Assembly: GCA_903830945.1 (NCBI GenBank)
Contig: CAIKVT010000031.1
Coordinates: 1-64,000 of the forward strand
Reading direction: 5' to 3'
Length of the DNA: 64,000 nt
DNA from: an uncultured Elusimicrobia bacterium
GTDB taxonomy: Bacteria > Elusimicrobiota > Elusimicrobia > UBA1565 > UBA9628
Under the pieces are notes generated by a model that saw nothing but the letters and a program-made list of their open reading frames with translations, was not told where the DNA came from and made no database searches. Of the stretch, positions 4,395 to 19,987 are shown piece after piece. Both the position numbers and the translations under genes were made by a program. Each line of letters begins with the position of its first letter. Position 1 is the first letter of the stretch.

Positions 4395-6044
4395 CTACTT
4401 ATCGAGCTTTTCGTAGACCGGTTGATACTGCATCCGCCGCATGTGCTCTAGAAGATGCTTGGGTCTGCGTTGGTCCGTCAAGCCGCGTTGGTAGGCCACT
4501 TCCGCCGTGGCCACGGCGATGCGGACCGATATCTCCCGGATCTTGGTGAGCGCCGGGAAGAGACGCCCTTTGGCGAGGTCCTTGGATGTGGTCATTCCCG
4601 CCAAGATCTTGGCGGAAGCGAAGAACATCTCGTCCGTGACCCGCTGGGCCTCGCTGACCGCCACTCCCAGCCCGACGCCCGGGAAGACGTAGGCGTTATT
4701 GGACTGGCCGGGCACGAGGGTCCTGCCCTTGTAGGAGTAGGGTGAAAACGGCGAACCGCTGGCGAAGATGGCGCGGCCGTCAGACCAGTCGTATGCCTCC
4801 TGCGCCGAGCATTCCGCTTTAGAAGTGGGATTGGAGAGCGCGAATATGACCGGGCGCCGGTTGATCCGGGCCATCTCCGTCACGATCGCGCGGGTGAACT
4901 GCTTGGGTTGTCCCGAGACTCCAATGAGGGCTGTGGGCTTGAGGGCCTTGACCGCGGCTGCCAGGTCCTTGAGGGGCGTATGCTGGTGGGCATAGGGTCT
5001 CTTGTGCGGCGCTAGGTCCGTGCGGCCGGCTATCACCAGGCCTTTGGAGTCCACGAACCAAAAGTGCCTCCGGGCTTCTTGAGGATCGGCTCCTTCGGCG
5101 ACGGCCGCGCTCACGCAGAGGTCCGCGATCCCGATCGCCGCTTCGCCGGCTCCCAGGAAGAGCAGGGTCTGGTCCTTCAACTTGCCGCCGGTCAGGCGCA
5201 TGGCGCTGTAGAGTCCGGCCAGCGCCACCGAGGCGGTCCCTTGGATGTCGTCGTTGAACGTGCAGACTTTGTTCCGGTACTTGGCGAGCAGGCGGAACGC
5301 GTTGTGGCCGGCGAAGTCCTCGAACTGGATGAGGGCCTTGGGAAAGACGTCCCGAACCGCGCGGATGAACTCATCGACGAAGGCATCATATGTCGGTCCC
5401 GATATCCGTCGTTTGCGGATGCCGAGGTAGAGCGGATCTTTGATGAGCGCTTCGTTGTTGGTTCCCACGTCGAGGAGGATCGGCAGGGTTTGCCGCGGCG
5501 GGATGCCGGCGCAGGCCGTATAGAGGGCTAGCTTGCCGATAGGTATGCCCATGCCGTTGGTGCCGAGGTCGCCCAGCCCCAGGATGCGCTCGCCGTCCGT
5601 CACTACGATGACCCGCACGTCGCGCTCGGGCCAGTTGTTGAGGATCTTCTTGATCTGGCCGCGGTATTCTCGGGAGAGGTACACGCCCCGTGGCCGCCGG
5701 AAGATGTGGCCGTAGGCTTGGCAGGCCTGGCCGACTACCGGGGTGTAGATGATGGGCATGGTTTCTTCGATGTGGTCCATCACCACCCGATAAAAAAGAG
5801 TCTCATTGCGGTCCTGTAGCGCTGTCAGCATGATATATTTCCCCAACGTGTCGGGAACCCGGCGGAAGTTATCCAGCGCCCGCGCGCATTGTTCTTCGAT
5901 GGTGCAGACATGGGGGGGCAGGAGGCCCAGCAGGCCGAAGCGCCGACGTTCTCCCTCCGTGAAAGCCGTACCCTTATTGAGGCAGGGGTCGTGGAGGATG
6001 TCCATGGCGAGGCGGGTCTTGAGGGCGGGATAGGCAGTTTTCAT
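4395..6044 (-). CDS. maeA: NAD-dependent malic enzyme
   Basis: A 549-residue cytosolic enzyme converting malate to pyruvate and CO2 with reduction of NAD(P)+. It has the full length and signatures of the large bacterial/eukaryotic malic enzyme family: YTPVVGQACQAYG near residue 100, the VVTDGERILGLGDLGTNGMGIPIGK segment with the conserved Tyr/Lys region, the metal-binding FEDFAGHNAF and FNDDIQGTASVALAGL, and the dinucleotide fold FLGAGEAAIGIA near residue 300. Choice between NAD and NADP cannot be made reliably by eye; the length favours the NAD-linked type. A TAACAT box lies six bases upstream of the ATG (6051-6056) and could be a leaderless-type -10. The GspE-like gene follows it. Confidence 0.93.
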   Translation of the reverse strand: MKTAYPALKTRLAMDILHDPCLNKGTAFTEGERRRFGLLGLLPPHVCTIEEQCARALDNFRRVPDTLGKYIMLTALQDRNETLFYRVVMDHIEETMPIIYTPVVGQACQAYGHIFRRPRGVYLSREYRGQIKKILNNWPERDVRVIVVTDGERILGLGDLGTNGMGIPIGKLALYTACAGIPPRQTLPILLDVGTNNEALIKDPLYLGIRKRRISGPTYDAFVDEFIRAVRDVFPKALIQFEDFAGHNAFRLLAKYRNKVCTFNDDIQGTASVALAGLYSAMRLTGGKLKDQTLLFLGAGEAAIGIADLCVSAAVAEGADPQEARRHFWFVDSKGLVIAGRTDLAPHKRPYAHQHTPLKDLAAAVKALKPTALIGVSGQPKQFTRAIVTEMARINRRPVIFALSNPTSKAECSAQEAYDWSDGRAIFASGSPFSPYSYKGRTLVPGQSNNAYVFPGVGLGVAVSEAQRVTDEMFFASAKILAGMTTSKDLAKGRLFPALTKIREISVRIAVATAEVAYQRGLTDQRRPKHLLEHMRRMQYQPVYEKLDK

Positions 6045-6146: not shown

Positions 6147-6695
6147 CTAGATCAACTCGGTGAGCAGTTCTGCCCGGGGCTTGGGGATGACGACCTTTTC
6201 GACTAAAAGCCCGCGGCGGCCCACCGCGGCCGCGGCCGCGGCCACGGCCGTGTCCACCGCGGCCACGCTTCCGGTCATAGTCACGAAAGCCTTGCCGCCC
6301 ATGGCCATGGCCAGACGCACTTCGATGAGGTGCACGGCCGCGGCCTTGACCGCCGCGTCGGCACCCTCGATCAGCGCGGAGACTGAGAAGGCCTCGACTA
6401 CGCCCAAGGCCTCAAGCTTATCCACAACCGCGGTGCCGGATATCGCCGGCATGACCTCGGGATGGATGTTAGGGATGACGAAGCGGTCGACCAAGGACAC
6501 CCCGCCGCGATTGCCGCCCGCGTCTACGCTGGCCTGCACGTCGGCGACCTCTCCCGTGACTAGGACGATGTACTTGCCAGGGCAAACCGTGCGCGCCAGC
6601 AGGAGCTTCACGGGCGAGGTCTTGAGCATGGTGTCAGCCACGTCGAAACCGCGCGCTATGCTGGAGAGTTCTACGCCGCCGATGGCATTGTTCAT
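6147..6695 (-). CDS. pduT: PduT-like bacterial microcompartment protein
   Basis: A 182-residue protein with two tandem BMC domains (about residues 5-85 and 95-180). It closely resembles PduT, the trimeric shell protein of propanediol-utilisation compartments that carries an Fe-S cluster in its central pore. It starts MNNAIGGVELSSIARGFDVAD, and its only cysteine, in TVCPGKY, is residue 38, the position of the cluster-binding Cys in PduT. An in-frame extension upstream is open but lies inside pduS, so I chose the ATG at 6695, which overlaps the pduS stop by four bases. No other shell or propanediol genes are in the window. Confidence 0.88.
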   Translation of the reverse strand: MNNAIGGVELSSIARGFDVADTMLKTSPVKLLLARTVCPGKYIVLVTGEVADVQASVDAGGNRGGVSLVDRFVIPNIHPEVMPAISGTAVVDKLEALGVVEAFSVSALIEGADAAVKAAAVHLIEVRLAMAMGGKAFVTMTGSVAAVDTAVAAAAAAVGRRGLLVEKVVIPKPRAELLTELI

Positions 6696-8029
6696 GCAGT
6701 GATCTCCACAAAATCCTGGATCGCGGTCACGCGACCGTTGATGCTGGCATGCACCGGCACGCCTAACTGGGCTTCGGGGACATCCCCGAGAAGGTCTCCG
6801 CGTTTGACCGTTTGGCCGACGGTCACCACCGGCAGGGCCGGCACGCCCACGTGCTGCTTCAACAGGATGCGGACAGTCTTGGGCGCGTAGGGCTCGTGGC
6901 GCAGCGGCGCTTCGGCCTCGTAATCCTCCAGTCCCAGTCGGCTCTTGAGCTGGCTCACCGGGATCTTGCGCCAGGGCCGGAGAGGATGGGCGTGGGGGGG
7001 CTGGCCGCGGTTCAAGGGGGAGTTCTTCCAGTAGACCTTCTTTGCGGCGAGGTCGGTTTTGGTGAAACCGCAGATGTCGCCGGGGTTGAGGTTTTCCGGG
7101 CAGGCGAAGAGGCTGCAGAGTTTGCACTCGCAGCACAATAGAGACCACTGGTTCCAAGGCTTGCGGTCGGCGGCCGAGAACAGCAGGCTGCGCATGACCT
7201 TGTGCGGCTGGATGTCGTAGCCCAGCAGGTAGCGGGGGCAGAGCTCGGTGCATAAGGAGCATTGGTCGCAGGCGGATTTTCCGGCGCGGTCGAAAGAGGC
7301 CCGGCCGGCGTTCTTGCGCCGCACTAGGGGGTGCTCTCGCGGCAGGATGATGAGGCCGCCGCTGGTTTTGGTCAGCGGCGACGAGAAGTCGGCGACCACC
7401 TTGCCCATCATAGCTCCGCCGTCCAAGGCGATCGGATCCTTGGCCGCGGCGCCGCCGGCTAAGGCTACGGCTTCCGCGATGGATACGCCTATTGGCAGGC
7501 GTAGGGTGCAGGGGCTCTTTACGGCGCCGGCTACGGTCAGGAAGGTGTCTACGACCGGGGTTTTTTCCGCTTGGGAGATGTTATAGAGGGATTCGACGTT
7601 GGCGACCACCACGCCGACCTGGAGCGGGATGCCGCCCATAGGGATGAGCTTGCCCGTGACTTCGAAGACCTGGCAGTATTCGTCGCCGGCTGGATAGTAG
7701 TCTTCTAGACGGTGGATGGAGAGGGTCGGCTTGCCGGCGATGGCTTTTTCTAGGATCTTGATGAGGCCCGCGTGTTTCTCCTTGATGGCGATGACTCCCC
7801 GAGAGGCGCCGGTCGCTGAGACCATCGACTCCAGCCCATAGACGACCTCCGGCGCGAAGTGTGTCAGGATCTCCTGGTCTTTCTGCAGGAGGGGCTCGCA
7901 TTCCGCGGCGTTGACGATGACCGTCTCGGCCTGGGATGAGACCTTGACATAGGAAGGGAAGCCCGCGCCGCCGGCCCCGACCACGCCGGCGCGGCGGATG
8001 AGGCGCGCAAATTCAGGCAGGGCCGTCAC
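6692..8029 (-). CDS. pduS: PduS-like RnfC-family flavo-iron-sulfur reductase
   Basis: A 445-residue member of the RnfC/PduS family. PduS is the NADH-dependent corrinoid reductase that reactivates B12 in propanediol compartments and binds FMN plus two [4Fe-4S] clusters. Visible features are the glycine-rich flavin/NADH-binding GAGGAGFPSYVK (residues 18-29), an SLBB-type domain around 163-210, and two ferredoxin motifs: C254-C257-C260-C264 and C299-C302-C305-C310. The C-terminal part resembles a biotinyl/lipoyl-like RnfC barrel. The start is GTG; TAAAAT ends six bases before it and no ribosome site is seen. It forms a two-gene unit with the PduT-like gene. Confidence 0.88.
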   Translation of the reverse strand: MTALPEFARLIRRAGVVGAGGAGFPSYVKVSSQAETVIVNAAECEPLLQKDQEILTHFAPEVVYGLESMVSATGASRGVIAIKEKHAGLIKILEKAIAGKPTLSIHRLEDYYPAGDEYCQVFEVTGKLIPMGGIPLQVGVVVANVESLYNISQAEKTPVVDTFLTVAGAVKSPCTLRLPIGVSIAEAVALAGGAAAKDPIALDGGAMMGKVVADFSSPLTKTSGGLIILPREHPLVRRKNAGRASFDRAGKSACDQCSLCTELCPRYLLGYDIQPHKVMRSLLFSAADRKPWNQWSLLCCECKLCSLFACPENLNPGDICGFTKTDLAAKKVYWKNSPLNRGQPPHAHPLRPWRKIPVSQLKSRLGLEDYEAEAPLRHEPYAPKTVRILLKQHVGVPALPVVTVGQTVKRGDLLGDVPEAQLGVPVHASINGRVTAIQDFVEITA

Positions 8030-8050: not shown

Positions 8051-8971
8051 CTAATAGGACGCCCATTGCTTCTGCCGCGAGTCTGTATGCGTGCAGTTCA
8101 CGAACAGGCTGCTTGAGCAGGGGGCTTTGGGGTCGGCGACATATCCCCATCCGCCTGTGTCCTGGAGCTTGGTCAAGTCGACAGCCTTCCCGCTGCAGAC
8201 GGAGGCGTCATAGACGCGCACGGCCGGGGAGTCCGGATGGAAGTTCGGCGTCTTGGCGTCCGGGATCTGCTGCAGGTACTTCCCGTTGAGCGTCAGGGCT
8301 GAGATGTCCGCGGGGTATTGGCCCTCCATGTCAGCGTAATAGATGGTTATGGCGCTGCGGAGGGACCCAAGATTTCCCTTGCCCGCGCCTTCGCCCGACT
8401 TCCTGGTCAGGTCCGCGAACCTCGGTATCGCGACAGCGGCTATGATGCCGAGCATGGCGACGAGGGGAAGGACAAGGCCCATAAGTATGACGGCGGCTTT
8501 GCGTCCGGTCCCGATCTCCTGGATGTAGATGACCCGGGTGTCGGCTAGGTAATCATGCAGGGCGCGCTTCTGGCCGGTGAAGGCGGCGATCACGAAACCC
8601 AATCCCGCGACGACGGTCGAGACCAGATAGCCGGCCCAGCGGCCGAAGCAGCGCAGATAGGTCAGGGGCGAGCCGTCCATGCGTACGATCGCGATGCCGG
8701 CCGCCATCTTGCCTAAGGTCTGGCCGGAATTGGCTGCGGGCATCCAGATGAAGTAGCCGATACCCAGCAGAGAGCTGCATAGGTTGGTCGCGATCTTGGG
8801 AATCCCCACCAAGAATAGTAAGCCGAAGACCACGAGTTGGGCGACGGCGAGCAGGATGCCATCGATCATGTAGGCGCCGGCGCGTATCCAGAAGCCGGCC
8901 GGGACGAATTCGGCGACTGCGGCCGGGGCGGGCTGATGAAGCGGGGCTCCGGGTTCGGGCGCGATGTCCAT
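8051..8971 (-). CDS. RDD membrane domain fused to type IV pilin-like domain
   Basis: A 306-residue protein of two parts. Residues about 20-150 form an RDD domain: FWIRAGAYMIDGILLA at the start, NSGQTLGKMAAGI and TGQKRALHDYLADTRVI later, with three to four membrane helices. From about residue 160 it continues as a type IV pilin/pseudopilin: a hydrophobic helix ending AAVAIPRFADLTRK, then GNLGSLRSAITIYYADMEGQYP and a small C-terminal domain with Cys residues. The prepilin peptidase site and Glu5 are missing, so this helix should stay as a membrane anchor that displays the pilin head. I chose the ATG at 8971 because AGGAGG lies five bases upstream; ATG 8992 is an alternative. Confidence 0.75.
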   Translation of the reverse strand: MDIAPEPGAPLHQPAPAAVAEFVPAGFWIRAGAYMIDGILLAVAQLVVFGLLFLVGIPKIATNLCSSLLGIGYFIWMPAANSGQTLGKMAAGIAIVRMDGSPLTYLRCFGRWAGYLVSTVVAGLGFVIAAFTGQKRALHDYLADTRVIYIQEIGTGRKAAVILMGLVLPLVAMLGIIAAVAIPRFADLTRKSGEGAGKGNLGSLRSAITIYYADMEGQYPADISALTLNGKYLQQIPDAKTPNFHPDSPAVRVYDASVCSGKAVDLTKLQDTGGWGYVADPKAPCSSSLFVNCTHTDSRQKQWASY

Positions 8972-9029
8972 GAAATCCTCCTGGGCAGACATCACAGAGT
9001 ATAATGCGGGGTGCGGCCCGCGTCAAGGC

Positions 9030-10277
9030 TCAGTGTAGGGTGAAGTCCAGCGGGGAGAGGCGGGCCGACGAAGGGAAGCGGCGGAAATTATCATTGAAGC
9101 TTCCGACGCCTACGAGGTCGGCCAAAGATGGGTCGTCGACGTAAGGGTTACGGTTATTTTGGAATTGTTCGACGAGATCGTTGCGCCGCAGTTCGTCCGT
9201 GGTCGGGGGATGCTCCCGGTTCCAGCGCAAAAACATGTCGATGCGGTCCTTGAAAAAGCCGTGGTTGTAGGCACCCTGGGTGATGTTTTGGTCGTAGTAG
9301 CGGGTGTAGAAATAGAGGATGGCGCGCGCGACCCGGCCCTTGGATGCGTCCGGGGGCTCGAAGACCCCCCCGCCTTCTTTGGCGCCTCCAGCATTGGAAT
9401 AGTCCGGTTGGCCGGTCACTTCACCAAAGGGCAGGTTGCTGCGCATGCTGTTGGGATGCTGGAAGGTCGGCAGGAGGTGGTGTAGGTCAGAGCGCATTGG
9501 CAGGACCTTGTCGAAGAAGGACTGCGGCCAGGTGTGCTCCACATTCATGCCATCGCGCTCTGGATAGCCGTCGCCGTCTTGGTCGCCGCCATCCGAGTAA
9601 TCGCCACCGTTGCTGCTGGTGCCCGGCACGAAGATGCCCGAGTAGGCGTCTACGACCCCGCGTACGCCATGGCTGACGATGTTGTCGGCCACGGAGAACA
9701 TGTATTGACTGGCATCCTTGTATTCGTGGGCGTGATAGTCGCGGCCGGTGATCTGGTGGAGGGAGGTCAGGAGCTGGGATCCGGAGAGCCCCTGGGTTTT
9801 GGCGAGATAGTCGGAACCGGAAGCGGCTGGCGCCTTGACGGGCGAGAGGTCGACGGCAGGGGCGCAACGGCGGATTCCTTCGTAGAAAGAGGAAAGGACC
9901 TGGGAGTCCTGGGCGTTACGCTGGGAGAGGGCTTGCTGGACCGTGATCCCGGTCTCGATGATCGAGGCGGCTGGCGCGGCCGGGCCCGGAGCTACGGGAG
10001 CGATCACGAGAGAGCCGACTAAGTGAGCGGCTTGGACTCGGGGAGAGAGGGTCGTGGTCAGCGCGGGCGCTTGGAGCGAGGGGGTGAGGGTCGCGCGGAT
10101 TGTCGGCGCCGTCAGGGATATCGGTCGGGTCCCGACCATGGGGGCGGTCAGGGCCCATGTCGGCATCAGGCGGACCGGTTCGTAGGTCGCTTTCTGGGCA
10201 ACGGATGGTAGGGCGGTCGTCAGAACAATAAGGAAAGAGGTCAGAACGGCCGAGCGATCGGAGGGGCGGGGCGCCAT
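9030..10277 (-). CDS. Secreted endonuclease I family nuclease
   Basis: A 415-residue exported protein. An N-terminal hydrophobic segment ends near AQ at about residue 28, then comes a Thr/Pro/Ala-rich low-complexity stretch, and the C-terminal half is an endonuclease I (EndA/NucM) domain. The catalytic motif is NVEHTWPQSFF, followed by MRSDLHHLLPTFQHPNSMRSNLPFGEV, both typical of this metal-dependent non-specific DNase/RNase family. Just before the catalytic motif, GGDQDGDGYPERDG looks like an inserted EF-hand-type calcium loop. It probably degrades extracellular nucleic acids. The start chosen is the ATG six bases after a TACACT box; an ATG six bases further upstream would lie directly on that box. 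Confidence 0.82.
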   Translation of the reverse strand: MAPRPSDRSAVLTSFLIVLTTALPSVAQKATYEPVRLMPTWALTAPMVGTRPISLTAPTIRATLTPSLQAPALTTTLSPRVQAAHLVGSLVIAPVAPGPAAPAASIIETGITVQQALSQRNAQDSQVLSSFYEGIRRCAPAVDLSPVKAPAASGSDYLAKTQGLSGSQLLTSLHQITGRDYHAHEYKDASQYMFSVADNIVSHGVRGVVDAYSGIFVPGTSSNGGDYSDGGDQDGDGYPERDGMNVEHTWPQSFFDKVLPMRSDLHHLLPTFQHPNSMRSNLPFGEVTGQPDYSNAGGAKEGGGVFEPPDASKGRVARAILYFYTRYYDQNITQGAYNHGFFKDRIDMFLRWNREHPPTTDELRRNDLVEQFQNNRNPYVDDPSLADLVGVGSFNDNFRRFPSSARLSPLDFTLH

Positions 10278-10283
10278 TGACAT

Positions 10284-14599: not shown

Positions 14600-15967
14600 A
14601 TGAAAATCACCCTCATCAAGAACGCTCTGCGCATCGCGTGTATGAATAATGCTCGCGATGAATTTTCAAACAGCGACCTCCTTATTGAAGGCAACGTCAT
14701 CAAAAAGATCGGGCCAGGCATCAAGGCCAAAGCCCACGATATCATTGACGCCAAGGACTGCGTGGTTTTCCCCGGTTTCATCAACACGCATCATCATCTT
14801 TACCAGACCCTTACTCGAAACCTATCCGCGGTGCAGGACAGCAAGCTCTTCGATTGGCTCATTTACCTCTACGAAGTCTGGCGGCACGTTACCCCGGAAG
14901 GCGTCAATATCAGCGCCCAGGTCGGCCTGGGCGAATTGCTCTTGACCGGCTGCACAACCAGTTCGGATCACTTCTACCTTTTTCCAGGCGGCAAAAGCGC
15001 CGACTTGATCGATCACGAGATCGATGGCGCGGCCCAAGTCGGCATGCGTTTCCACGCCTGCCGCGGATCCATGTCGCGCGGCAAGTCCAAGGGCGGCCTG
15101 CCCCCCGACGACGTCGTGCAGACCGAAGACGAGATCATGAAAGATTGCGAGCGGCTGGTCGGAAAATATCACGACCGTAAGCCCTATGCCATGACCCGTA
15201 TTGCTTTGGCTCCCTGCTCGCCTTTCTCGGTGACCACGGAGCTCCTCAAGCTTTCGGCCCAGATGGCCAAGAAATGGGATGTGCGCCTGCATACTCACTT
15301 GGCCGAGACGCTCGACGAGGAAGCCTACTGTTTGGAACTCTATAAGATGCGGCCTTTGGCTTACATGGAGTCCGTGGGTTGGCTCGAGGGCGGCCGCTCT
15401 TGGTTCGCCCACTGCGTGCACATGAACGAGGCGGAGTCCCGGCTTATGGGCCAGACCAATACCGGCGTGGCCCACTGCCCATCTTCTAACCTGCGCCTTG
15501 GTTCAGGCATCGCGCCCACGCGTATGTATTTGAATGATAAGGTTCCCTTGGGCATCGGCGTAGACGGCTCCGCCTCCAACGACTGTTGCGACATGCTCGC
15601 CGAAGTGCGCCAGGCCATGCTCGTGGCCCGCGTTAAGTCCGGCGTGGGCTCCATGTCCGCGCGCGACGCCCTGTGGATCGCCACGCGCGGCGGGGCCCAG
15701 GTTCTTGGCCGCGACGACATCGGCGAGCTCTCGCCTGGCAAGGCTGCGGATATCGCTCTTTTTGACCTCAGCGGCATCGATTTTGCGGGCTCTCTGTCCG
15801 ACCCCGTGGCCGCCGCAGTCTTCTGCGGGGCCAGCCATAAGGCCAAGCACGTTCTGGTCGACGGCAAGCAGGTCGTCCAGGACGGTCGTCTCGTCAATGT
15901 GGACGAGGCCGTTCTGGCCCGCAAGGCCAACAAGCTCTCACGAGAGATGCTGGAGAAGGCGGCCTAG
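14600..15967 (+). CDS. 8-oxoguanine deaminase-like amidohydrolase
   Basis: A 455-residue cytosolic metal-dependent deaminase of the amidohydrolase superfamily (TrzN/AtzB/SsnA/8-oxoguanine deaminase branch). Metal ligands are visible: NTHHHLYQTLTRN near residue 62 (HxH), THLAE near residue 232, the HCVHMNE segment, and GVDGSASND with the late Asp. The Q-T-L-T-R-N motif and SSDHFYLFPGG closely resemble 8-oxoguanine deaminase, which turns 8-oxoguanine into urate and ammonia. Guanine deaminase or a related purine/triazine activity cannot be excluded. It is the first gene of a six-gene operon with a MoaD-like protein and a molybdenum hydroxylase, which fits purine catabolism. Confidence 0.8.
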   Translation: MKITLIKNALRIACMNNARDEFSNSDLLIEGNVIKKIGPGIKAKAHDIIDAKDCVVFPGFINTHHHLYQTLTRNLSAVQDSKLFDWLIYLYEVWRHVTPEGVNISAQVGLGELLLTGCTTSSDHFYLFPGGKSADLIDHEIDGAAQVGMRFHACRGSMSRGKSKGGLPPDDVVQTEDEIMKDCERLVGKYHDRKPYAMTRIALAPCSPFSVTTELLKLSAQMAKKWDVRLHTHLAETLDEEAYCLELYKMRPLAYMESVGWLEGGRSWFAHCVHMNEAESRLMGQTNTGVAHCPSSNLRLGSGIAPTRMYLNDKVPLGIGVDGSASNDCCDMLAEVRQAMLVARVKSGVGSMSARDALWIATRGGAQVLGRDDIGELSPGKAADIALFDLSGIDFAGSLSDPVAAAVFCGASHKAKHVLVDGKQVVQDGRLVNVDEAVLARKANKLSREMLEKAA

Positions 15968-16246
15968 ATGCCCAAGGTGTTGGTCAAGCTCTACACCACG
16001 TTACGCTTGCGCCTGGGCAAGTCCCAGATCTGGGTGGAGGGCAAGACGGCCGCCGACGCGGTCGGCCGCGTGGCCGAACTCGGCGGCGCAGAGGTCGCCC
16101 AGGCGCTGTTCGATGTGAAGGGCACCGTGCGCAACGAGTTCCTCCTGGCCTTGGATTCGGAGATCCTTGACCGCAACGCTTTGGACCAGGTACAGCTTAA
16201 GGAGGGCAACGTCCTGCACATCTTCCCTCCCATATCCGGAGGTTGA
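15968..16246 (+). CDS. MoaD/ThiS-family sulfur carrier protein
   Basis: A 92-residue beta-grasp protein that ends in PPISGG, the C-terminal di-glycine tail on which MoaD-type sulfur carriers are adenylated and thiocarboxylated. LKEGNVLHIFPPISGG is the standard MoaD ending. MoaD supplies the dithiolene sulfurs of molybdopterin. The ATG immediately follows the stop of the deaminase gene, and the three molybdenum hydroxylase subunits follow directly. This placement suggests a dedicated carrier for the cofactor of this enzyme, but it could also be the housekeeping MoaD. No MoaE or MoeB is next to it. Confidence 0.85.
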   Translation: MPKVLVKLYTTLRLRLGKSQIWVEGKTAADAVGRVAELGGAEVAQALFDVKGTVRNEFLLALDSEILDRNALDQVQLKEGNVLHIFPPISGG

Positions 16247-16252
16247 CCGCAG

Positions 16253-17104
16253 ATGAAGAACAACATCAAGCAGTTCTGCTTCCCTACCAGCGCCAAGGAG
16301 GCCGCGAGCCTCATCAACCGGCTCAAGAGCAAGGCCGTGGTCGTGGCCGGAGGCACGCGCCTCTCGCGGGCTCTGCTGCCAACGGTAGAGACCGTGGTGG
16401 ATCTGGCTGACCTGCCGCTCAAGCATATCGCGGCAGATAAGAAGTGGCTGCGCATCGGAGCCCTTTGCTCGGTCGCGGAGCTTGAGAAGTCTTCGCTGCT
16501 GGGCAAGTGGGCGTGCGGCGTCATCGTCAAGGCGGCGAGCCACTGGAGCAACGCCCTGGCCCGCAGCATGGGCACCGTGGGCGGCAACGTGGCGCGCGCC
16601 CATCCGCACAACAACCTGCCCCCGGTCTTCCTGGCTCTGGACGCGGTCGCGGTATGCACGGACGGGCGCCGCGAGATAATCATCCCCTTTGCCCAGCTTC
16701 TTGAGCCAGGGCTCATGCGCGAGCTGGGCACGCGCTACATCGTCATCGAGGTGCGCGTGCCGGCCGAGACCAGGACTTGGTCGTGCGCCTGCGCGCGCCT
16801 TGTGCTCACCAAGACCAGTTGGGAGGCCTACACCAACTGCGTGGTCGCAGTGGAACAAGAAGACGGCGCGGTGCGCCGCGCCTCCGTGGTGATCGGTTCG
16901 GTGCTGCCTCGGGCCGTGCGTCTAGGCAAGGCTGAGGCGGCCTTGATCGGCAGGAGCTGCGGCGAGGCTGCGGCGTGCGCGGCCGAGACCGCTGCCGCGG
17001 CCGAGCTTCAGTCGCTCACCACTGGCGCCCCAGCCAAGGCTTACGCCTGCCGGACTTCCGGGGTCATGGTGCGGCGCTGTCTGATCGAAGCTTTCAACAG
17101 ATGA
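16253..17104 (+). CDS. Xanthine dehydrogenase family, FAD-binding subunit
   Basis: A 283-residue flavoprotein subunit of a three-part molybdenum hydroxylase. It passes electrons from the [2Fe-2S] clusters to NAD+ or another acceptor through FAD. The first FAD-binding loop reads VVVAGGTRLSRAL (about residues 29-41) and the second GTVGGNVARAHPHNNLPPVFLALDA (about 107-131). The second loop is unusual, since most members have a Ser/Pro/Ala-Asp pattern there instead of HPHNN. A CO-dehydrogenase flavoprotein C-terminal domain follows from about residue 160. It starts six bases after the MoaD-like gene. Confidence 0.86.
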   Translation: MKNNIKQFCFPTSAKEAASLINRLKSKAVVVAGGTRLSRALLPTVETVVDLADLPLKHIAADKKWLRIGALCSVAELEKSSLLGKWACGVIVKAASHWSNALARSMGTVGGNVARAHPHNNLPPVFLALDAVAVCTDGRREIIIPFAQLLEPGLMRELGTRYIVIEVRVPAETRTWSCACARLVLTKTSWEAYTNCVVAVEQEDGAVRRASVVIGSVLPRAVRLGKAEAALIGRSCGEAAACAAETAAAAELQSLTTGAPAKAYACRTSGVMVRRCLIEAFNR

Positions 17105-17114
17105 GGTGAGAGAA

Positions 17115-17639
17115 ATGGCCAAGACTAAGGGACGCGGCGTTTTGAAGGCGGTCGACGGGGTGATCGCCATCACCGTCAACATCAATGGCCGGGACCAGGC
17201 ACTGAAGGTCGTTTCGGGCGAGTACCTGCTCGACACCTTGCGCCGGGAAGGCTACAAAGGCGTCAAGAAAGGCTGCGACAACGGCGACTGCGGTACCTGC
17301 ACCGTGCTTCTGGACGGCCGGCCCGTGTTGGCTTGCATGATGTTCGCGGCTCAGGCCCACGGTCGCAGAGTCTTGACCATCGAGGGTCTCGGCACGCCGG
17401 ACCGGCCCCATCCCATCCAGCAGGCTTTCGTGGAGTCGGGCGCGGTGCAGTGCGGCTTCTGCATCCCGGGCATGGTGCTGGCGACCAAGGCGCTTTTAGA
17501 CGAGAACCCGGACCCGGATGAGCCGGCCGCGCGCCGGGCTTTGGACGGCAACCTGTGTCGCTGTACGGGCTACGTCAAGCAGATCGAGGCGGTGCTTTTG
17601 GCCGCCAAGAGGATCAAGGCTTCTCCAGGAGGGAAATAG
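17115..17639 (+). CDS. Xanthine dehydrogenase family, [2Fe-2S] subunit
   Basis: A 174-residue iron-sulfur subunit. The N-terminal plant-type ferredoxin domain has CDNGDCGTCTVLLDG plus an upstream-paired Cys at VLACMM. The C-terminal helical domain has QCGFCIPGMVL and GNLCRCTGYVKQ, the second [2Fe-2S] site. Both motifs are complete. I chose ATG 17115, which has a GAGGTGA ribosome site five bases upstream; a GTG three codons earlier is possible. The gene is ten bases after the FAD subunit and two bases before the molybdenum subunit. Confidence 0.93.
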   Translation: MAKTKGRGVLKAVDGVIAITVNINGRDQALKVVSGEYLLDTLRREGYKGVKKGCDNGDCGTCTVLLDGRPVLACMMFAAQAHGRRVLTIEGLGTPDRPHPIQQAFVESGAVQCGFCIPGMVLATKALLDENPDPDEPAARRALDGNLCRCTGYVKQIEAVLLAAKRIKASPGGK

Positions 17640-17641
17640 CC

Positions 17642-19987
17642 ATGGGCGTCGCGGATAAGAGGGTTTTCACGGTCGTCAACCACCGGGTCGACAAGATCGA
17701 CGCGCTGGCCTTGGCTTGCGGTACGGCCCAGTTCACGGATGATGTTGACATCCGGGGACTGCTCGTCGGCCGCATCCTATTCAGCCCCTACGCCCACGCG
17801 CGCATTAAGAGCATCGATACCCGGGCCGCCAAGAAGGTGCCGGGCGTTCTTGCGGTGCTCACTCACGAGGACTTGCCTCGCGTGCGCCACACCACGGCCG
17901 GGCAGGGCTACCCCGAGCCATCGCCCTACGACACTTTGGTCCTCAGCGAGAAGGCCCGCTACGTGGGCGACCGCATTGCGGCCGTCGCCGCCGAAACGGC
18001 CGAAGCCGCGGAAGAGGCTCTGAGCAAGATCAAGGTGGACTACGAGGTCCTGCCCGCGGTGTTCGACACCATGGCCGCCATGAAGGACGGCGCCCCCGTC
18101 ATCCACGACGAGGAAGACTCCAAGAATATCCCGGACGTCCAGCACAATATCTGCGCCAAGTTCGACTTCGAGGTCAAGGAGAACGAGTGGTTCTCCGAGG
18201 CCGACATCGTCATCGATCAGTGGTACAAGACGCAATGGGCCCAGCATTGCGCCCTGGAGCCCCACATCGCCATCACCTACTTCGACGGCGACGGCAGACT
18301 GGTCATCCGCACTTCCACCCAGGTGCCCTTCCACTGCCGGCGCATCACGGCTCGGGTCCTGCAGCTGCCGCTCAAGTCCATCCGCGTCATCAAGCCCCGC
18401 ATCGGCGGGGGCTTCGGCTCCAAGCAGGAGGTCCTGCTCGAGCCGGTGTGCGCGGCCTTGACCTTGGCGACCAGGCGGCCGGTCAAGCTCGAGTTCTCAC
18501 GCAAGGAGACCTTCATCTCCTCGCGCACGCGCCATCCCTTCGTGCTCCGGCTCAAGACTGGGGCCAAGAAGGACGGCACCATCACGGACGCGCACATGGA
18601 GGTCTACTGCGACAACGGGGCCTACGGCGCGCACAGCCTGACCGTCATGATGTGCTCGGGCTCGCACACCTTGCCCATGTACCAGGCCAAGAACTCCCGC
18701 TTCATTGGCCGTTCGGTCTACACTAACCTCCCGGTAGGCGGCGCCTACCGTGGTTTCGGCGCGACCCAGGGTTTTTTCGCCTGGGAGAGCCAGATGGACA
18801 TGATGGCTGAAGGACTGGGCCTGGACCCCATCGAGTTCCGCCGCAAGAACTACATCCGCTCCGGCGAGGGCTCCCCGGTCTTCAAGGCCATGGGCGAGGG
18901 TCGCGAGGGCATCGAGCAGAAGATCGGCTCCTGCGGCATGGACGCCTGCATCGATAAGGGAATGGAGGCTTTCGGCTGGCGCGAGAGGAAGAAGCGCAAC
19001 GCCAAGCAGACCGGCGTCAAGCGCCGGGGTCTGGGCTGCGCTTGCCTCATGCAGGGCTCAGGCATCCCGGAGGTGGACATGGCCGCCGCCTCCATCAAGA
19101 TGAATGAGGACGGCTCGTTCAATCTGCATATGGGAGCCACCGACTTGGGGACCGGCTCGGACACGGTCCTGGCCCAGATCGCGGCCGAGGTCCTGGGAAT
19201 TTCCGTTAAGGATATCATCGTGCTGTCCTCGGATACGGACTTGACTCCTTTCGACGTGGGGGCCTATGCCTCTTCGACCACCTTTATCTCCGGCAACGCG
19301 GTCAAGAAGGCCGCTTTGCACGCGCGCGAGCAGATCCTTAAGGTCGCGGCGCGCATATTAGACGAGGATCCTGAGGATGTGGATCTCAAGGACGGAAAGG
19401 CCGTGGGCAAGTCCGGCCGTTCCTGTTCCCTGTCTGAGGTGGCCAACACCGCATTCTACTATCATGACCAGCACCAGATCATGGGCGTGGCCTCGCACAC
19501 CGCGACCAGTTCGCCTCCACCTTTCGCTGCGCATTTTACTGAAGTGGAGGTGGACACCGAAACCGGCCAGGTCGAGGTCCTCTCTTATGTCTCTACGGTG
19601 GATTGCGGTACGGCCATTAACCCGACTCTGGCCGAGGGGCAGAACGACGGGGCGGTCCTCAACGGCCTCTCGTACGCTCTGACTGAGGAGATGCGCTTCA
19701 ACGCGGCCGGGGCCATGGTCAATTCATCCTTTCGAAACTATAAGATCTACTCCGCCGGCGACGCCCCGCCTTTTCAGACCATCCTCATCCCGACCTACGA
19801 GCCCGACGGTCCTTTCGGTGCCAAGTCGGTCTCGGAGATCGGCATCAACGGGCCGCAGCCGGCCATCGCCAATGCTATCTACGACGCGGTGGGCGTGCGG
19901 CTCTTCGCGCCGCCTTTTACGCCGGAGAAGGTCCTAGCCGCGCTCCAGGCCACGAAGAAAAAGAGGGTCCCGACGAGTGGGAGATAG
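17642..19987 (+). CDS. Xanthine dehydrogenase family, molybdopterin subunit
   Basis: A 781-residue catalytic subunit that binds the molybdopterin cofactor. Conserved segments are CGTAQFTDD near the start, QHCALEPHI, the IGGGFGSKQE loop near residue 257, GAYRGFGATQG near residue 365, the GATDLGTGSDTVLAQ loop, and near the C-terminus GAKSVSEIGINGP, where the Glu is the expected catalytic base. The preceding deaminase supports a purine substrate (hypoxanthine or xanthine), but aldehyde or nicotinate-type substrates cannot be excluded from sequence alone. AGGAGGG lies nine bases before the ATG. The next gene starts one base after its stop. Confidence 0.9.
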   Translation: MGVADKRVFTVVNHRVDKIDALALACGTAQFTDDVDIRGLLVGRILFSPYAHARIKSIDTRAAKKVPGVLAVLTHEDLPRVRHTTAGQGYPEPSPYDTLVLSEKARYVGDRIAAVAAETAEAAEEALSKIKVDYEVLPAVFDTMAAMKDGAPVIHDEEDSKNIPDVQHNICAKFDFEVKENEWFSEADIVIDQWYKTQWAQHCALEPHIAITYFDGDGRLVIRTSTQVPFHCRRITARVLQLPLKSIRVIKPRIGGGFGSKQEVLLEPVCAALTLATRRPVKLEFSRKETFISSRTRHPFVLRLKTGAKKDGTITDAHMEVYCDNGAYGAHSLTVMMCSGSHTLPMYQAKNSRFIGRSVYTNLPVGGAYRGFGATQGFFAWESQMDMMAEGLGLDPIEFRRKNYIRSGEGSPVFKAMGEGREGIEQKIGSCGMDACIDKGMEAFGWRERKKRNAKQTGVKRRGLGCACLMQGSGIPEVDMAAASIKMNEDGSFNLHMGATDLGTGSDTVLAQIAAEVLGISVKDIIVLSSDTDLTPFDVGAYASSTTFISGNAVKKAALHAREQILKVAARILDEDPEDVDLKDGKAVGKSGRSCSLSEVANTAFYYHDQHQIMGVASHTATSSPPPFAAHFTEVEVDTETGQVEVLSYVSTVDCGTAINPTLAEGQNDGAVLNGLSYALTEEMRFNAAGAMVNSSFRNYKIYSAGDAPPFQTILIPTYEPDGPFGAKSVSEIGINGPQPAIANAIYDAVGVRLFAPPFTPEKVLAALQATKKKRVPTSGR

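Follow-up and report, generated by a model that had tools for sequence, protein, structure and literature searches.

Does a pduS–pduT pair with no other shell gene around it work as an electron conduit by itself, or does it belong to a microcompartment whose genes lie elsewhere in the genome? This question is raised by the first 64,000 nucleotides of contig C31 (the window, meaning the whole stretch of DNA that was analysed) of an uncultured Elusimicrobia bacterium. A preliminary description, made from these letters alone, had called the pair an orphan and had named both possibilities. The pair lies at positions 6147–8029 as described there, domain matches confirm both genes, and the malic enzyme gene said to adjoin them is present. 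Published work is cited below by PMC number and from extracts of the papers. The features of the locus are as follows.

6147..6695, minus strand: pduT, encoding a double BMC-domain shell protein (BMC-T) of 182 aa (PF00936 matched twice, 142 bits)
6582..6584, minus strand: codon of PduT Cys38, the expected ligand of a pore [4Fe-4S] cluster (residue conservation)
6692..8029, minus strand: pduS, encoding a flavin and Fe-S electron-transfer protein of 445 aa, with a GTG start (domain matches)
7238..7270, minus strand: first four-cysteine motif of PduS, residues 254, 257, 260, and 264 (conservation)
7100..7135, minus strand: second four-cysteine motif of PduS, residues 299, 302, 305, and 310 (conservation)
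8051–8995, minus strand: RDD-family gene, upstream of pduS (PF06271)
9030–10283, minus strand: endonuclease I gene, upstream of pduS (PF04231)
4395–6044: malic enzyme gene, downstream of the pair

The pduT reading frame, shorter than the ORF as listed, starts at the ATG at 6695 and stops at 6147; this ATG overlaps the pduS stop codon as ATGA, and the two genes share 4 bp. Counted from that start, the cysteine that had been placed in the BMC pore is indeed residue 38, and it aligns with a cysteine of solved relatives. The best solved matches of PduT were 3nwg, 3pac, 3n79 (PduT), and 3vcd (PduT), the structures named PduT matching at E 1e-45 and 1e-42. Since its score against the NCBIfam equivalog TIGR02526 (121.1 bits) is below the cut-off of 250.3, we call the protein a PduT homologue rather than that equivalog. 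A profile search of PduS gave Complex1_51K (PF01512), SLBB (PF10531), Fer4_17 (PF13534), and RnfC_N (PF13375), the four-domain list given for PduS in PMC6325248. Its relatives among solved structures are RnfC and NuoF-type proteins alone, with RnfC the nearest, and its 213 bits lie below the RnfC cut-off of 246. Both four-cysteine motifs attributed to PduS are present, and C300, within the second motif, is conserved too; we infer that residues 299, 302, 305, and 310 are the cluster ligands.

All 38 Elusimicrobiota PduT sequences and all 74 PduT sequences from named genomes keep Cys38, so the loss of this residue that was looked for among relatives did not appear, and the eight motif cysteines of PduS are kept in 38/38 and 80/80 sequences, respectively (in both comparisons, the two sets share some genomes). 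The named loci come from many phyla and are the best 80 of 579 confirmed relatives; six of the 80 gave no PduT, and three of those six end at most 320 bases from PduS. The PduS loci L172, L178, and L192 have at least 4 kb on the 3′ side, and no PduT was detected there. Overall, pduS and pduT probably encode a wire that takes electrons through the protein wall of a bacterial compartment.

The wall itself could be located in the window's own assembly, G000, an Elusimicrobiota MAG of 3.24 Mb in 84 contigs that is 99% complete. A profile search of this genome gave six BMC-domain and three BMC-P matches; with the two PduT halves set aside, every match falls in the 39.0–44.4 kb region of contig C55. 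The gene order there is PduL, BMC-H, BMC-P, CoA-acylating aldehyde dehydrogenase (AldDH), double BMC-T, RpiB, BMC-P, BMC-P, DeoC, and BMC-H, and a triosephosphate isomerase (TPI), named from its sequence, is encoded just upstream. With two BMC-H, one BMC-T, and three BMC-P, the shell set is complete, and AldDH and DeoC have N-terminal extensions that resemble encapsulation peptides by eye. The statement that shell genes are lacking thus holds for the window, where PF00936 matched the two PduT halves only and PF03319 nothing, and fails for the genome. Diol dehydratase (PF02286) gave no match in the 56 genomes of the order, G000 included, which is a weak negative as the control genomes gave no match either.

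Sugar-phosphate-utilising (SPU) microcompartments fall into seven subtypes, SPU1 to SPU7. The C55 operon combines a PF01791 aldolase and a PF02502 isomerase with BMC-H and BMC-P, which is the SPU definition, and judged by its predicted proteins it encodes an SPU microcompartment. DeoC and RpiB are the enzyme pair common to all SPU microcompartments (Sutter et al. 2021, PMC8217296). The C55 BMC-T has Ala in place of PduT Cys38, so that PduT alone of the two double-BMC proteins of G000 carries the pore cysteine; BMC-T paralogues have Ala or Ser at this position.

Contamination of the MAG was rejected as a source of the pair, as C55 and the pair contig agree in tetranucleotide composition (r 0.993) and each of the 7 genomes in the genus carries the pair. 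On C31, 6.1 kb separate the pair from the contig end, and on C55 at least 21 kb lie between the operon and the nearer end; with the closest ends placed together, the two loci would still be separated by about 28 kb or more. The genome search that had been suggested for a shell cluster found one, not directly linked to the pair. Satellite loci as defined by Sutter 2021 encode a shell protein, alone or with enzymes, at a distance from a main locus that has BMC-H and BMC-P, and the pair is of this kind. A strict satellite after Axen 2014 has an insufficient shell set, is contiguous, shares its genome with a second BMC locus, and has no other BMC genes nearby. The pair shows the first three properties and departs from the last; since PduS is itself BMC-associated, Axen's term would be satellite-like (PMC4207490). 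Given a complete shell operon in the same genome, the pair is almost certainly a satellite of the C55 SPU microcompartment and not a stand-alone conduit.

The same separation is seen across the order, in which 19 of the 56 genomes have PduS, with PduT adjoining each (G208 and G233 are cut by contig ends), and the pair and the main locus are on different contigs in all 18 genomes where both could be placed. Named loci in which PduS is flanked by 8 kb or more on each side number 34, a sample biased toward query-like sequences; 29 of them are without another shell domain, and 28 of these unlinked loci have PduT. The remaining five are linked to shell genes, and all five are from Elusimicrobia.

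We consider it likely that the pduS–pduT satellite supplies the electron gate of the C55 SPU-type microcompartment. The enclosed AldDH would make NADH inside the compartment, and as there is no alcohol dehydrogenase among the ten C55 operon proteins scanned, this NADH would be re-oxidised in another way. PduS would sit on the inner face of PduT and re-oxidise NADH via FMN and two [4Fe-4S] clusters; electrons would then pass to the PduT pore [4Fe-4S] cluster, held by three Cys38 residues, and from there to an acceptor in the cytosol. The model for these steps is the Citrobacter system, in which PduS, an FMN protein, oxidises NADH, has two [4Fe-4S] clusters, and copurifies with PduT, the potentials are −262/−150 mV for PduS and +99 mV for PduT, and outward passage of electrons was proposed (PMC2982820). 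By this analogy, outward flow appears somewhat the better bet. PduS in some SPU loci was an unexplained feature for Axen et al. 2014 (PMC4207490), and in GRM loci pduS nearly always adjoins pduT, its role being left open by Ferlez et al. 2019 (PMC6325248). A link to oxygen was tried and rejected: the terminal oxidase (PF00115, counted from long strong matches) is present in 13/19 genomes with the pair versus 32/37 without (p 0.16), and with shell-bearing genomes as the comparison the difference is not significant either (13/19 versus 25/28, p 0.13).

Electrons might also run the other way, the pair bringing reducing power in or helping to reduce aldehyde to alcohol inside the shell. Axen et al. 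2014, finding alcohol dehydrogenase missing, suggested that SPU PduS might make alcohol from aldehyde (PMC4207490), and Ferlez et al. 2019 discuss PduS as an electron source for an enclosed enzyme (PMC6325248). However, the Citrobacter potentials favour the sequence NADH to PduS to PduT (PMC2982820). Moreover, the enclosed pathway makes NADH, and no scanned operon enzyme needs low-potential electrons, which leaves reverse flow unlikely.

Ethanolamine ammonia-lyase is a B12 enzyme that makes acetaldehyde, and PduS could serve it as a corrin reductase, as in PDU compartments. Fused EutB-EutC is encoded in G000 and G232, and Citrobacter PduS reduces cobalamin (PMC2982820). Nevertheless, 17 of the 19 pair-bearing genomes in the order lack EutB (it occurs in 2/56 order genomes in all), EutB-EutC of G000 is on contig C36 and not beside the pair, DeoC needs no B12 (PMC4207490), and the universal Cys38 of PduT would be left unexplained, so we regard a corrin reductase as very improbable. 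The two fusions each occupy one frame (L226:8673-11138 in G000, on C36, and L227:3563-6055 in G232), and by eye the N-terminus of the G000 protein resembles a signal peptide.

To return to the gate reading, the pair was seen to keep company with shells in both samples. In a phylum survey of 340 genomes, in which the named relatives are Elusimicrobia/Elusimicrobiota MAGs, 83 had a strong PduS match (E 1e-50 or better), and BMC-P was present in 81 of them; a further 43 genomes had BMC-P without PduS, and 214 had neither (Fisher p 2e-43, uncorrected for kinship). Of the two exceptions, G233 is 82% complete in 460 contigs and has three BMC-domain matches (best 4e-27), and G163 is 71% complete and 14% contaminated. 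Weak PduS matches in 8 genomes (best 1e-31 to 1e-38, about 29–35% identity) were not counted and are likely RnfC-like paralogues; one of these genomes has BMC-P. Beyond the phylum, BMC-P was found in 49/49 genomes searched, which represent 49 of the 65 loci L128–L192. These figures show that the pair goes with shells; together with the C55 genes they make the word orphan wrong at the genome level and bear out the alternative of a remote microcompartment locus. That PduS and PduT work together without any shell is hence scarcely credible, for although in G000 the two genes form a self-contained unit with the other shell genes far away, and the 29 unlinked named loci look alike in this respect, BMC-P accompanies PduS throughout both samples apart from two incomplete genomes.

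The reverse does not hold. BMC-P is present in 46 genomes of the order, 28 of which are without the pair, so that the shell can do without it. The gate is thus an optional add-on, and many relatives keep the shell without the gate.

Adjacency of pduS and pduT is kept in the order. Malic enzyme gave no match in any of 20 pair loci from relatives; it was rejected as a partner and is an incidental neighbour, particular to G000 among the genomes checked. Axen noted MaeB beside EUT1 loci as unexplained (PMC4207490). No recurrent redox partner beside the pair was found among the clusters of flanking genes examined. On the other side, the RDD and endonuclease I genes form a stretch on the same strand that ends 21 bp before pduS. 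Both are upstream of pduS in five of the six checkable genomes of the genus, the window counted; the other four are G231, G229 (with extra ORFs between), G230, and G232, and the two genes are missing there in G234. A DNase adjoining the gate is suggestive, the compartment being thought to burn DNA sugar, but it is no more than that. Further along, positions 14600–19987 of the window encode amidohydrolase, MoaD-like, FAD, 2Fe-2S, and molybdopterin subunits (two by domain search, the rest by eye), which looks like a purine-base breakdown cluster.

Sister family f8 has the same operon with the pair at its head, in the order PduS-PduT-TPI-PduL-BMC-H-BMC-P-AldDH-BMC-T-RpiB-BMC-P-BMC-P-DeoC-BMC-H (L104, L106, L107, L109, and L112, some cut at a contig or sequence end; L105 is of the same type with an 8-kb gap), these loci having been selected for the presence of PduS and BMC-H on one contig. 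In the outgroup Elusimicrobiota loci L110 and L111, PduS-PduT lies between AldDH and RpiB, the place of BMC-T elsewhere, and no separate BMC-T was found in them. A duplication may have given rise to the two double-BMC proteins. Other variants were noted in passing. L167 has two PduS-PduT sets in a single stretch, one within a shell operon with DeoC and one outside. The shell operon of L101 (G204, a single contig) has its AldDH and BMC-P frames in pieces, from either sequencing errors or decay. Two f3g16 genomes have 7.5 to 9.7 kb inserted between AldDH and BMC-T (L096:5414-12788 and L098:4040-13493); EUT-type inserts were considered for these main loci and rejected, as by eye the ORFs resemble genes for secreted proteins rather than eut genes.

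The separate locus also has a separate history. We compared a tree of ten concatenated main-operon proteins with one of PduS plus PduT. The main-operon tree separates families f1 and f3, the base of f1 being weakly supported. In the tree of the pair, the three pair-bearing genomes of f1 genus g3 (G197, G208, and G210) stand beside f3g16 with support of 100/100, and genus g5 groups with f3g17, f3g18, and f10. Constraining the pair tree to hold f1 together was rejected (AU p 5e-50, log-likelihood loss 388), as were joining g1 with g3 (AU p 1e-42, loss 221) and holding f3 together (AU p 1e-5, loss 256); holding the whole order together came at no cost. Forcing the main operons of the g3 pair-bearers together with g16 was likewise rejected (AU p 8e-5, loss 848). 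The conflict between the two trees argues that the pair moved between families on its own, and its nesting within f3 would favour a transfer from f3 to g3. A misbinned contig is ruled out for G197 because the flanks of its pair match relatives within its own genus. Repeated loss of old paralogues could mimic such a transfer, but it needs more steps.

Loss can be followed in the same genus. G196 is near G197 in the main-operon tree and has the same flanks, which its contig joins directly. At the junction, which reads MSEQLNDFARLLTELV-stop, PduS begins the frame and the end of PduT completes it, a deletion scar of about 1.8 kb. All genes looked for in the G196 shell operon (L103) are present, so the pair was lost independently of the shell. 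Across g3, 15 of 19 genomes have BMC-P and 3 of 19 have PduS.

From these observations, we tentatively suggest, at slightly under an even chance, that pduS–pduT is a plug-in redox module which lineages exchange, a two-gene unit outside the shell operon whose transfer, loss, and retention are independent of the shell, in which case the organelle would exist in closed and electron-exporting versions, and regulation of the satellite alone could let cells change from one to the other. That PduS and PduT carry electrons across the wall has yet to be proven, and why they occur in B12-free loci is recognised as a puzzle (PMC4207490, PMC6325248). A clade with related shells that have, lack, or have freshly deleted the gate offers natural comparisons. 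Moreover, a separate locus suggests that a shell can gain the gate while its operon stays as it is, a useful property for engineering. The conduit is also linked in this way to a compartment that is thought to use DNA sugar as fuel in uncultured Elusimicrobiota. The literature already covers SPU compartments, the occurrence of PduS in some of their loci, satellite loci, and the idea of a PduS-PduT conduit. In the open-licence literature, we found no paper on a pduS–pduT satellite transferred and lost apart from its shell, although the supplementary data of Sutter may list such satellites, and in the open-licence literature, subscription papers and supplements aside, none on Elusimicrobiota microcompartments.

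Compared with known systems, the pair resembles PduS and PduT of PDU and GRM compartments in the domain architecture of PduS, the double-BMC PduT with its pore cysteine, and the adjacency of the genes (PMC2982820, PMC6325248). However, the PDU and GRM pairs belong to the operon of a compartment with a B12 or glycyl-radical enzyme, whereas the pair here lies apart, and the compartment is of the sugar-phosphate type with no B12 or glycyl-radical enzyme in its operon. RnfC and NuoF-type subunits share the 51K, SLBB, Fe-S, and RnfC_N domains with PduS, but in the order PduS, unlike RnfC, invariably has a shell protein gene next to it. With SPU microcompartments, C55 has in common DeoC (PF01791), RpiB (PF02502), AldDH, PduL, BMC-H, BMC-T, and BMC-P as well as the adjoining TPI. 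PduS was reported in Atribacteria SPU loci (PMC4207490), whereas PduS and PduT are outside the main operon here. Satellite loci (Axen 2014; Sutter 2021) likewise place a shell gene and a partner far from a complete main locus (PMC8217296). Their described cargo differs: Sutter 2021 names permeability tuning and substrate-extension modules, and neither PduS nor PduT occurs in its main text (PMC8217296), whereas the satellite described here carries an electron-transfer pair. In sum, the organelle is of a known kind, and pduS–pduT is a redox module that can be separated from it.
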